From Actinocorallia populi (lineage in GTDB: Bacteria; Actinomycetota; Actinomycetes; Streptosporangiales; Streptosporangiaceae): a stretch of 64,000 nt of DNA. Position numbers and translations under genes: made by a program. Below are positions 28,101 through 36,503 of the stretch, one piece after another. The stretch covers positions 496,001 to 560,000 of the forward strand of contig NZ_PVZV01000003.1 of the NCBI RefSeq assembly GCF_002995495.1, in the 5' to 3' direction. The stretch's first letter is position 1. Each line of letters opens with the position of its first letter. Below the pieces are notes generated by a model. That model was not told where the DNA came from. It worked only from the letters and a program-made list of their open reading frames with translations, and made no database searches.

Positions 28101-31100
28101 TCTTGAGGACGGCCAGGACCGCGACGACCAGCTCCGCCGAACGCGGCAGCTTCAGCGCCACGAACCGCTCCGGTCCGGCGCCCAGCTCGGCGAGCCTGCG
28201 GGCGAGCCGGTTGGCGCGCTCGTTGAGCTCCCGGTAGGTGAGGGAGTCGCCTTCGCAGGTGACGGCCACCGCGTCGGGCGTCCGCGCGGCCTGCTCCTCG
28301 AACACCGCGTGGATCGTGCGCCGCTCCTCGGGCGCGGCCGGGGCGACGGTGCCGCCCGACCACTCCTGAAGGACGGTGGCGCGCTCGTCCTCCGCCAGCA
28401 GCGGGGCGGTGCCGACGGGGGCGTCCGGTTCGGCCAGCAGCGCGGTGAACAGCCGCTCGAACCGGGTGACCAGGGCGCGGGCCGTGGGCGGGTCGTACAG
28501 GTCGAGCGCGTACTCCAGCTCGCCGTCCAGCCCGGCGGGCTCCCCGCCGGGGCCGAACCGCTCGGTCAGCATGATCAGCGTGTCGAACCGGGACACGGCG
28601 GCGTGCAGCGGCTCCGGCTCGGCGGTGAAGCCGTCGAGCTCCAGGCGGGCCTCGGGGTTGTTCTGGAAGGTGAGGCCGTGCTGGAACAGCGGGTGGCGGC
28701 CCATGTGCCGGACCGGGTTGAGCACCTCCACCAGGCGCTCGAACGGCAGGTCCTGGTGGGCGTAGGCGGCCAGGTCCGTCTCGCGGACGCGGCCGACGAG
28801 CTCCCGGAACGTGGGGTCGCCGGAGACGTCCGTGCGCAGGACCAGCATGTTCACGAACATGCCGACCATGTCGTCCAGTGCCTCGTCGGTGCGCCCGGCG
28901 ATCGGCGAGCCGAGCGGGATGTCCTCGCCGCCGCCCAGCCGCGACAGCAGGGCGGCGTAGGCGGCCTGCGCGACCATGAACGGCGAGCTCTGGGTCTGCG
29001 AGGCCAGCTCGTTGACGCGGCGCTGGACGTCGGCGGACAGCTGGAACCGGACGGTCGCGCCCCGGTGGGTGGCCTCGTCCGGGCGCGGCCGGTCCGCGGG
29101 CAGCTCCAGCTCCTCGGGCAGCCCGGCGAGCGTCTGCCTCCAGTAGGCGATCTGCTGGGACAGCAGGCTGGACGGGTCGTCCTCGGACCCGAACAGCTCC
29201 TGCTGCCACAGCGTGTAGTCGGCGTACTGGACGGGCAGCGGCTCCCACCGCGGCGCGCCGCCGGAGACGCGGGAGGCGTAGGCGGTGATGACGTCGCGCG
29301 CCAGCGGCGCCAGCGACCATCCGTCGGTGGCGACGTGGTGCATGAGCAGCACCGCGATGTGCAGGTCGTCGGACAGGCGCAGCAGGTGGGCGCGCAGCGG
29401 CGGCTCCACCGAGATGTCGAAGGGGTAGCCGGCGACCCGGGCGAGCGCCGCGGGCAGCCCGGCCTCGGTGACGTCGGTGGTCTCGACCCGCGGGCAGGCC
29501 GCGGCCGGGGCGAGGATCTGCTGGCGCGGGGTGCCGCCGGAGTCCGGGAAGATCGTCCGCAGCGACTCGTGGCGGGCCACGACGTCGGCGAGCGCGTCCT
29601 GGAGTGCCGCGTGGTCCAGCGGACCGGTCAGGCGCAGTGCCAGCGGCATGTTGTAGGTGGCCGAGGGCCCCTCGAACCTGTTGAGGAACCACAACCGCTG
29701 CTGGGCGTACGACAGCGGGATCTGCGCCGGGCGCTCCGCGGGGACGAGCGCGGGACGGGCCGGGGCGGCGTCCGCCAGGTGGGCGGCCAGGCCGGCGACG
29801 GTCGGGTCCTCGAACAGCACCCGGACGGGCAGCTCCACGTCGAAGGCCGCGCGGGCCTTGGCGACGACCCGCATGGCCAGCAGCGAGTTGCCGCCCAGCG
29901 CGAAGAAGTCGTCGTCCACGCCGACCTCCTCCACGCCCAGCAGCTCCCCGACGATCCGGCAGAGCACGCGCTCCTGCCCGGTGGAGGGGGCCCGGTAGGG
30001 GGTGCTCTGGGGGGTCAGCTCCGGCCTGGGCAGCGCCTTGGTGTCGACCTTGCCGTTGGGCGTCAGCGGCAGCTCGTTCATCACCATGATCGCCGAGGGG
30101 ACCATGGCGGCGGGCAGGTGCTCCTGCACGAACGCGCGCAGCTCCTCGGAGCTGATCGTCCTGCCGGGCGCGGGCACCACGTAGGCGACGAGCCGCTTGT
30201 CCGACGGCGTACCCGCGCGGGGCGCGGGGGCCGGGGCGGGCGTCCGCAGCAGCCGCTCGTCCACCTCCGGCAGCGCCATCGCGCCGACCCGCACGCCGGG
30301 GTCGGCGACGGCCGCCTCCAGCACCTGGCCGAGCCAGCGGGCCAGGTCCGCCGCGCTCGGCTCGTCGAACAGGTCGCGGGCGTACTCCAGGGTGCCGGCC
30401 AGGCCGCCCTCGGGGCGCTCCTCCAGCAGGAACTCCAGGTCGAACTTGGCGACGCCGGGGTCGACGGGCTCGACCGAGACCGTCAGGCCGTCCAGCTCCA
30501 CCTTGGCGGGCGGGTTGTTCTGGAGGGTGAGCATCACCTGGAACAGCGGGTGCCGGGCCAGGGATCGCGCCGGGTTGAGGATCTCCACCAGCCGCTCGAA
30601 CGGCAGCTCCTGGTGGGCGTAGGCGGCCAGGTCCGTCTCGCGGACGCGGCCGACGAGCTCGCGGAACGTGGGGTCGCCGGAGGTGTCGGTGCGCAGGACG
30701 AGGGTGTTGACGAAGACGCCGACCAGGCCGTCCAGTGCGCTCTCGGTGCGCCCGGCGATGGGCGAGCCGAGCGGGATGTCGGTGCCCGCCCCCAGGCGGG
30801 TCAGCAGCGCGGCCAGGCCGGCCTGCAGCACCATGAAGAGGCTGCCCTGGCTGGAGTGGGCCAGCTCCCGCAGGCCCGCCAGGGTGCGCTCGGAGATCTC
30901 GAAGGAGACCTGGCCGCCCCGGTAGGAGGCGCGGTCGGGGCGGGGCCGGTCGGCCGGCAGGGCGAGCTGGTCGGGCAGCCCGGCCAGCTCCCGGCTCCAG
31001 TGGCGGATCTGGGTCGACACCAGGCTCTGCGGGTCGTCCTCGGAGCCGAACAGCTCCCGCTGCCAGAGCGCGTAGTCGCCGTACTGGACGGGCAGCGGCT

Positions 31101-35030: not shown

Positions 35031-36503
35031 TTACCGGCCCGTGGCGAAGTCGTGCACCACCACTGCTACGGCGCCGACGCTCGGGTGCCGCTGGAGCACG
35101 GCCTCGATCTCGCCCAGCTCCATCCGGACGCCGGCGATCTTCACCTGCCGGTCGACCCGCCCCAGGTACTGCAGCGCGCCGCTCGGGAGCACCTTCACCG
35201 CGTCGCCCGTCCGGTAGAGGCGGCTGGTCAGGGAGGGTCCGAAGGGCGAGCGGAAGAACGCGTCGCGGGTGCGCTCGTGGTCGCCCAGGTAGCCGCGGCC
35301 CACGCCGTGGCCGCCCACGAACAGCTCCCCCGTCTCCCCCGGCTCGCAGGCGTACCACCGGTCGTCGTCCTCCTTGCGCAGGACGTAGAGGTCGGTGTTG
35401 ATCACGGGGGTGCCGATGGGCAGCCGCAGCAGCTCCAGGTCACCCAGAGTGACGATGTGGTGGGTCACGTCGTCGGAGCACTCGGTGGGCCCGTAGGCGT
35501 TCACCAGCCCCGCCTGCGGCATCTCCAGCAGCCAGCGGCGCGCCACCTCGGTGGGCAGCTCCTCGCCGGTGGCCAGCATCCAGCGCAGGCCCGACAGGCG
35601 CGTCCCGCCCTGGGCGGCCAGGTCGTCCAGCAGCAGCCTGACCATGGTGGGCACCAGCTCCACGATGGTGATCCGCTGCCCGTCGACCACATCGGCGAAG
35701 GCCACCGGGTCGTAGGAGACCTCGTCGCCGACGACGTGCACCTGGCCGCCGTTGACCAGCGGGCAGAGCATCTGCCAGATGGAGATGTCGAAGCCCAGCG
35801 GCGCGGTCTGGGCGACCACGTCCCGGTCGGTCATCCCCAGGTCGACGATCTTGGCGTAGATGTGGTTGATCATGCCCTGGTGCTCGACCACCGCGCCCTT
35901 GGGCTTGCCGGTGGAACCCGAGGTGAAGAGCATGTAGCGGGGCTGGTCGATGCCCTCCAGGCGGGCCTCGCCCTCCCACGGCGGGCAGGCCGCCGCCTCG
36001 TGCGCCCGCACGATCCGCACGCCGGCCTCGGCCGCGCCCTCCGCCAGGGCGGGGGTGACCTCGCCGGGGTCGGTGTTGAACAGCAGCACCGCGCCGGCCT
36101 GCTCCAGCACGCCGGCGACGCGCCTGGCGGGCCAGTTGGCGTCCGCGGGGACGTAGACGGCGCCGAGCAGCTCCAGCGCCAGGAAGGCGGCGATGACGGT
36201 GACGCTCCGTACACCGCCGACCGCCACGACCGCGCCGGGGAGCACCCCCTCGCGCTCCAGCAGCGCGGCGATCCGGCGCGCCTCGACCGCCAGTTCGGCG
36301 TAGGACAGCGCGCGGGTCTCGTCGCGCACGGCGGGGCGGTCCCCGCCTGCGGCGATGCCCTCCACCCGGGTGATCACCGGGGCGGACAGGTCGACCTCGT
36401 GCGCACGGCTCATGGCGAACTTCCGCGCGCGCTCGACCTCCCCTTCGGAGAGGGCGAGCTCTGGCAGAGCGGTTTGCTCGAGCAGTCCATCCAAGATCGT
36501 CAC
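35031..36503 (-). CDS. Stand-alone adenylation core (A1-A8), lacking A9-A10
   Basis: 490 aa from GTG 36503 with GGAGGAG seven bases upstream. It is an NRPS-type adenylation domain: LFTSGSTGKPKG (A3), NAYGPTECSDD (A5), YRTGD (A7) and GRVDRQVKIAGVRMELGE (A8), ending ...VVVHDFATGR then TAA. It stops about 25 residues after A8, so the C-terminal lid with A9 and the A10 lysine is absent. No frameshifted continuation exists downstream. The missing piece is exactly what remains in module 2 of the adjacent NRPS. No carrier protein is attached. The pocket, with the lysine taken from the NRPS, reads D-I-W-E-L-T-A-D-D-K. Four acidic residues suggest a diamino acid, and Dap genes lie divergently next door. 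Alone it should be unable to complete adenylation. Confidence 0.88.
   Translation of the reverse strand: MTILDGLLEQTALPELALSEGEVERARKFAMSRAHEVDLSAPVITRVEGIAAGGDRPAVRDETRALSYAELAVEARRIAALLEREGVLPGAVVAVGGVRSVTVIAAFLALELLGAVYVPADANWPARRVAGVLEQAGAVLLFNTDPGEVTPALAEGAAEAGVRIVRAHEAAACPPWEGEARLEGIDQPRYMLFTSGSTGKPKGAVVEHQGMINHIYAKIVDLGMTDRDVVAQTAPLGFDISIWQMLCPLVNGGQVHVVGDEVSYDPVAFADVVDGQRITIVELVPTMVRLLLDDLAAQGGTRLSGLRWMLATGEELPTEVARRWLLEMPQAGLVNAYGPTECSDDVTHHIVTLGDLELLRLPIGTPVINTDLYVLRKEDDDRWYACEPGETGELFVGGHGVGRGYLGDHERTRDAFFRSPFGPSLTSRLYRTGDAVKVLPSGALQYLGRVDRQVKIAGVRMELGEIEAVLQRHPSVGAVAVVVHDFATGR

Follow-up and report, generated by a model that had tools for sequence, protein, structure and literature searches.

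The window analysed here, a 64,000-nucleotide stretch of the Actinocorallia populi genome (bases 496001–560000 of contig C3 in an assembly of 8.25 Mb), contains a cluster of three nonribosomal peptide synthetase (NRPS) genes, all on the minus strand, in which one adenylation (A) domain is divided between two proteins. The larger part, motifs A1–A8 and hereafter the core, is encoded by a free-standing gene that lies 347 bases upstream of the first synthetase gene, NRPS1, on the same strand; the smaller part, motifs A9–A10 and hereafter the tail, sits inside NRPS1 between a condensation (C) domain and a peptidyl carrier protein (PCP). We propose that the two very probably make up one composite A domain in trans. 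The features concerned, in window coordinates, are as follows, with E standing for epimerization domain, AF2 for AlphaFold2 and pLDDT for its predicted local distance difference test score.

35031..36503, minus strand: stand-alone adenylation core (A1–A8), 490 amino acids, pocket code DIWELTADD (Pfam; TIGR01733, 350.8 bits, above cut-off)
35034..35150, minus strand: part of the core beyond hinge residue D451, first half of the C-terminal subdomain (AF2 pLDDT; A8 without Arg in 54/54 cores)
25138..34683, minus strand: NRPS1, 3181 amino acids, C-A-PCP / C-tail-PCP / C-A-PCP-E
30265..31572, minus strand: condensation domain of the split module 2 (Pfam, residues 1038–1473)
30028..30204, minus strand: orphan A9–A10 tail, residues 1494–1552 (AF2 pLDDT about 90)
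30049–30051, minus strand: codon of the tail's A10 lysine, residue 1545
29776..29967, minus strand: PCP2, carrier of the split module (Pfam, residues 1573–1636; carrier serine invariant in 37/37 rows)

Translation of the core gene yields a protein that ends ...GEIEAVLQRHPSVGAVAVVVHDFATGR* and in which Pfam finds AMP-binding but not AMP-binding_C, and NRPS1 contains four Condensation, two AMP-binding, three AMP-binding_C and three PP-binding stretches. Module 2 of NRPS1 runs from its C domain through a Pro/Ala linker into A9–A10, which starts at DKRLVAYVV, and then into the PCP, with A9–A10 present and AMP-binding absent. A sequence-only reading of this DNA had described such a module without A1–A8 together with an upstream gene that stops before A9, and Pfam and the translations bear out both halves of that description. 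By its A3–A8 motifs and amino-acid pocket the core is recognized as an NRPS adenylation domain (TIGR01733), and the motif residues are mostly invariant across 30 aligned cores; its chain has no A9–A10 and no catalytic lysine, and a tail of that kind is found in NRPS1. The split is genuine and not an artefact, and a sequencing error or frameshift was ruled out because the stop recurs at the same position in independent genomes and contigs.

Mapped onto solved NRPS chains, the two halves fall next to each other. The core covers residues 42–453 and the tail query residues 454–611 of DhbF (PDB 5u89), the core reaches 626 and the tail begins at 625 in LgrA A1, and the corresponding positions are 893 and 901 in SrfA-C and 886 and 899 in EntF. 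The earlier statement that there is neither overlap nor gap is correct to within about −2 to +12 residues, but the exact fit varies with the template. The break does not coincide with the hinge; it lies nearly 40 residues past D451, inside the C-terminal subdomain. In AF2 models, for which each half was folded alone as a single chain, the tail together with PCP2 reached a mean pLDDT of 86.6 (37 sequences), and the core (30-core alignment) was modelled with high confidence over most of the pre-hinge region and with pLDDT below 50 for residues 450–465 and 472–490. As the low values concern the piece beyond the hinge, this part of the core may lack a partner that the tail could supply, although low confidence of a chain modelled alone is no proof of it. 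Foldseek matched the core to NRPS A domains, with the A3 domain of sulfazecin synthetase bound to 2,3-diaminopropionate (Dap) at ranks 4 and 9.

A genome search for the same gene pair, which the sequence-only reading had suggested as a check, found both halves in 62 of 341 genomes of the family, the core only in two, the tail only in none and neither in 277. The core search, which scored the best four candidates per genome, returned 68 genomes at E up to 1e-110, among them 64 with truncated cores, a count that omits G124, G263, G264 and G305, whose matches at 48–52% identity have their own tail. A profile built from 18 split tails, with the best 18 candidates per genome scored and counted at E up to 3e-29, gave 72 matches in 62 genomes. 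The surroundings of 30 of the 72 were read and showed the order C-tail-PCP in 30/30, some further matches were read at other loci, and the rest were counted as split by score. Two split tails read at other loci score 91.4 and 99.1 bits with the tail model, within the range of intact tails (up to 103.2), so the tail counts are lower bounds. In the two core-only genomes, G237 and G248, which by position are loci L102 and L077, the contigs end before the tail module.

An independent collection tells the same story: 53 of the 79 loci found with the core hold truncated cores, and the other 26 are A domains with their own tail at 53% identity or less. The 53 loci belong to Actinocorallia, Actinomadura, Thermomonospora, Spirillospora, Nonomuraea, Streptomyces and two actinomycete metagenome-assembled genomes, and among named relatives Actinocorallia sp. 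API 0066 (L063), with an 86% identical core, is the closest found. The position of the stop is narrowly kept, since 55 of 58 readable distinct cores end 18–25 residues past the GEIE motif and the other three 31, 34 and 53 residues past it, in a set that omits seven entries in which the script found no motif, one A domain cut by a contig end and one frame break. In Actinomadura rudentiformis (L113:9938-11575) the core has at its end an extension of about 30 residues in which PVSPAS is repeated. A downstream C-tail-PCP module is present in the same locus in 39/53 cases; a contig border before the module, or broken frames, accounts for L074, L077, L102, L111 and L124, and for the remaining nine (four Streptomyces, three Nonomuraea, Actinomadura litoris and Actinomadura sp. 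OS1-43 contig 30) split tails were found farther along the contig or elsewhere in the genome. Within the window's own genome, the 78 AMP-binding and 69 AMP-binding_C matches form 67 pairs; the only two unpaired tails both lie within C-tail-PCP modules, and among the unpaired AMP-binding genes this core alone scores like an NRPS A domain.

Both halves bear the marks of constraint. The A10 lysine is kept in 57/57 distinct split tails, and the ratio of nonsynonymous to synonymous substitution (dN/dS) is 0.35 for the split tail and 0.30 for the core, compared with 0.42 for the split-module PCP, 0.58 and 0.42 for intact tails, which came from differing modules, and 0.67 for the split-module C domain (pooled Nei-Gojobori counts from at most 53 loci, the number of loci differing between domains). 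Residues on the two sides of the break are also matched. Among 150 intact domains, A9 Tyr/His accompanies 131 of 139 domains with the A8 arginine (QVKxRG) and only 1 of 11 without it (Fisher 4e-10, computed, like the Fisher value for co-occurrence, without regard to kinship), and A10 Arg follows the same pattern with a weaker link (123/139 versus 4/11). The A8 residue is not Arg in 54/54 cores, nor in G256 and G257, and the split tails correspondingly have A9 other than Tyr/His in 52/52 and no A10 Arg in 51/52.

All 55 distinct truncated cores form one clade in the A-core tree (support 0.999), adjoining free-standing intact A proteins (support 0.948). In trees of a picked set of 28 sources rooted at the midpoint, 28 of 30 tail-PCP units fall into one clade (0.90), with two singles, whereas the 27 C domains that precede those units spread over eight clades; from this it seems that tail and PCP move between modules together. 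Split tails score nearer to ordinary NRPS tails (median best 207) than to the tails of the core's intact relatives (125), in a comparison of 15 split tails picked from 52 with 12 ordinary tails and seven relatives' tails, and simple descent from the core's own lost tail is less likely for this reason. Judged by sequence, the split tail resembles an NRPS tail that has adapted to a core of foreign origin. A shrunken A6–A7 stretch without A8 precedes the tail in A. litoris, in two Nonomuraea and in G256, which fits deletion of an original core in place. On contig C18 of A. litoris (G246; L037, L145, L146) three split modules with such relics stand as a natural series of domain erosion.

The gene divergent from the core bears on the substrate, as does the gene that follows it:

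36844..37812, plus strand: SbnA-type 2,3-diaminopropionate synthesis gene, divergent from the core (TIGR03945, 390.8 bits, above cut-off)
37911..38918, plus strand: SbnB-type 2,3-diaminopropionate synthesis gene, start codon not fixed (TIGR03944, 416.9 bits, above cut-off; PF02423)

Both enzymes of this cassette are assigned at equivalog level, the NCBIfam cut-offs being passed. SbnA is found near 50 and SbnB near 48 of the 53 cores, and both together beside 48; the loci with neither (L108, L111, L124) all begin at the edge of a contig, and SbnB is missing from the vicinity of L065 and L067. The intact relatives L118, L120 and L110 also carry both genes. Because SbnA and SbnB adjoin the core, its substrate is probably Dap, which we prefer over 2,4-diaminobutyrate (Dab). 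The pocket reads DIWE[ILV]TADD in 61 of 73 script-labelled core entries, which include some cut or non-NRPS domains, with no code in 10 and other codes in two; the final K of the code, added by the script, would be contributed by the tail. Text searches of one open-access library with the pocket string returned no paper. The alternative that the composite domain is real but activates Dab or another diamino acid in place of Dap is unlikely, yet it is the most serious of those considered. Read by eye, the pocket residues equal those of PvdL A3, the substrate of which we take to be Dab from pyoverdine chemistry, and SulM A3, solved with Dap, reads DVWE and differs from the core pocket at several further positions. 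Against this stands the cassette itself, above cut-offs here and beside nearly all cores.

One core can face several tails, a point beyond the sequence-only reading. A single core and two tails occur in G000 (the window's genome), G001, G002 and G206, and each of the three genomes compared within the window's genus has this composition; A. litoris has one core and at least three tails, and in G282 five tails accompany two cores. The two tails of G001, a genome in a single contig, are about 857 kb apart, and the second belongs to an NRPS of the same layout. The second tail of the window's genome is part of an NRPS on contig C4 (L252, G000:C4:384000-391000), and no core was found in the 46 kb read around it. 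The first A-domain code of the L252 NRPS differs from that of NRPS1. A search of the window's genome for a second, diverged core that might serve this tail was negative: none of the ten other unpaired AMP-binding genes scores above about 103 bits, versus about 424 for an NRPS A domain, and in two of them, L289 and L296, nothing passed the NRPS core model. With a 30-core profile, whose scoring covered the best 150 candidates in all but one of the seven genomes searched, six genomes gave one match near 900 bits and others of at most 296, and G282 gave two near 900. Five genomes searched for SbnB each have one gene above cut-off. That the core may be shared between clusters is the simplest reading of these gene counts. 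We lean towards, without being confident of, the wider proposition that one core acts as a shared plug-in for several tail-PCP acceptor cassettes that have spread by recombination across modules and clusters, serving diaminopropionate activation in more than one assembly line.

The sequence-only reading knew of no well-described natural case of an A domain assembled from two proteins, but natural cases are known. In corallorazine biosynthesis a functional A domain is split at A8/A9 on the two genes for Crz1 and Crz2; activity arose only on mixing both proteins, and the authors regard this, to their knowledge, as the first experimental report (PMC11342130). There the A2 domain breaks at the same motif boundary as here, its first half closing one NRPS, which carries an inserted N-methyltransferase, and its second half opening the following gene. 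In the present cluster, by contrast, the halves are not the facing ends of successive NRPS genes: the large half is a free-standing protein, the small half lies within an NRPS, flanked by C and PCP, and a single core can be matched by several tails. The kutzneride line is closely related, with a free-standing A protein, KtzN, and a module with a truncated A domain (A*) in KtzH, compared here by description; KtzN is reportedly an active A domain in itself. In PMC10587159 the A* of that line is described as critical for transfer of Glu by KtzN, a substrate unlike the diamino acid proposed here. Module 13 of the glidonin synthetase (C-A*-T-TE, where T is a thiolation and TE a thioesterase domain) likewise retains no more of an A domain than its C-terminal part, but its C domain takes putrescine directly and the description available names no partner core (PMC10587159). 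Amino acids are also activated outside the line by trans-acting A-T or A-PCP proteins, among them SyrB1, Alb04, those serving enduracidin and ramoplanin modules, and Cal22/Cal23 (PMC8949500, PMC7539972). As there described, these are didomains, unlike the core, which has 490 amino acids and AMP-binding only. The A domains of such trans-acting proteins are generally complete, and the core has neither a complete A domain nor a PCP of its own. Interrupted A domains such as KtzH A4 and TioS break at the same site of the fold, but there, as described in PMC11355689, a methyltransferase is inserted between a8 and a9 in one polypeptide. The novelty here lies in a free-standing core paired with internal tails, in one core relating to many tails, in the spread of the tail-PCP and in the wide conservation; searches of one open-access library, which does not cover most subscription journals, turned up no description of such a system.

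Co-occurrence, the single origin of the core, the invariant A10 lysine, the low dN/dS of the tail, the history of the tail-PCP and the A8/A9 matching together support, at the level of sequence, assembly in trans feeding PCP2, as the sequence-only reading had suggested, with possible help from MbtH, a gene for which is present in the cluster. We infer that the core would bind ATP together with a diamino acid, the likeliest candidate being the L-2,3-diaminopropionate that the neighbouring SbnA and SbnB would supply, and that the tail between the C domain and PCP2 would complete the C-terminal subdomain, supply the A10 lysine for adenylate formation and turn PCP2 in for loading. As an exchangeable subunit the core may serve several tail-PCP acceptors, including those in other clusters of the same genome. 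It is improbable that the core loads PCP2 on its own, as an ordinary trans-acting A domain would, with the tail as a mere docking surface or spacer and A10 unused. There are precedents from WS9326A, syringomycin, albicidin and ramoplanin for the loading of modules in trans by free-standing A or A-PCP proteins, and the intact proteins most closely related to the core stand alone as well; yet nearly all readable cores end at almost the same place without A9–A10, each of the 62 tail-bearing genomes has a core, the tail keeps its lysine and has a low dN/dS, and the core residues past the hinge are modelled with low confidence when alone. That module 2 is dead or skipped and the core a relic with another purpose is very unlikely. 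Glidonin module 13 is described as an A* module without amino-acid activation, but here both halves have low dN/dS and the PCP serine is invariant, with the pocket and the SbnA/SbnB neighbours conserved across many species.

Several observations weigh against the composite domain as set out here. Two single tails (G256, G246) have no A9 Tyr but keep the A10 Arg, and the A8/A9 matching rests on few evolutionary events because most split tails belong to one clade. Adjacency in most loci likely allows joint inheritance without direct contact. A second core in G257 has no C-tail-PCP module within the 60 kb read around it, and in A. litoris the SbnB gene and the core are on different contigs. The identity of the pocket with a Dab-type domain, and not with the Dap-type SulM A3, makes the substrate uncertain. 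The second core of G257 (contig C2; L052, L150, L151) is more distant, at 61% identity.

The rest of the cluster lies downstream of NRPS1, with the E and TE domains of all three synthetases assigned by eye:

17468..25141, minus strand: NRPS2, C-A-PCP-C-A-PCP-E, A domains intact, start approximate
13650..17500, minus strand: NRPS3, C-A-PCP-TE, A domain intact, start approximate, TE by eye
13446..13640, minus strand: MbtH-like protein gene, start codon not fixed
12015..12752, minus strand: type II thioesterase

The MbtH, type II thioesterase and GNAT genes are at the end of the cluster opposite the core, SbnA and SbnB. The GNAT acetyltransferase (window 12763-13542) has a 73% identical stretch near the A. 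litoris core (L067), and an acyl-CoA thioesterase-like gene after SbnB (window 39014-39883) has matches of about 56–57% identity in L034 and L063. Beside the cluster lies a Ser/Thr kinase gene (window 8980-10905) with a weak C-terminal laminin-G-like match below the Pfam cut-off. Farther away, at window 52325-62069, a row of genes encodes an Hsp70-like protein, an 857-amino-acid protein without a Pfam match, two Double-GTPase 2 proteins and a PASTA protein, which may be a conflict or signalling system.

We expect that genome mining would label split modules as A-less or broken, and the residue signature of the split tails and cores (A8 without Arg, A9 without Tyr, often NGKVDT) could be used to find such modules. 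If the composite domain is real, natural compatible pairs would be at hand for engineering substrate choice without cutting megasynthases, and cross-talk between gene clusters becomes directly testable. An NRPS adenylation domain would then operate in two interchangeable parts, with a catalytic subunit on which several lines draw and a small adaptor joined to the carrier, and the shared core would be an NRPS counterpart to the trans-acting acyltransferases of polyketide synthases.

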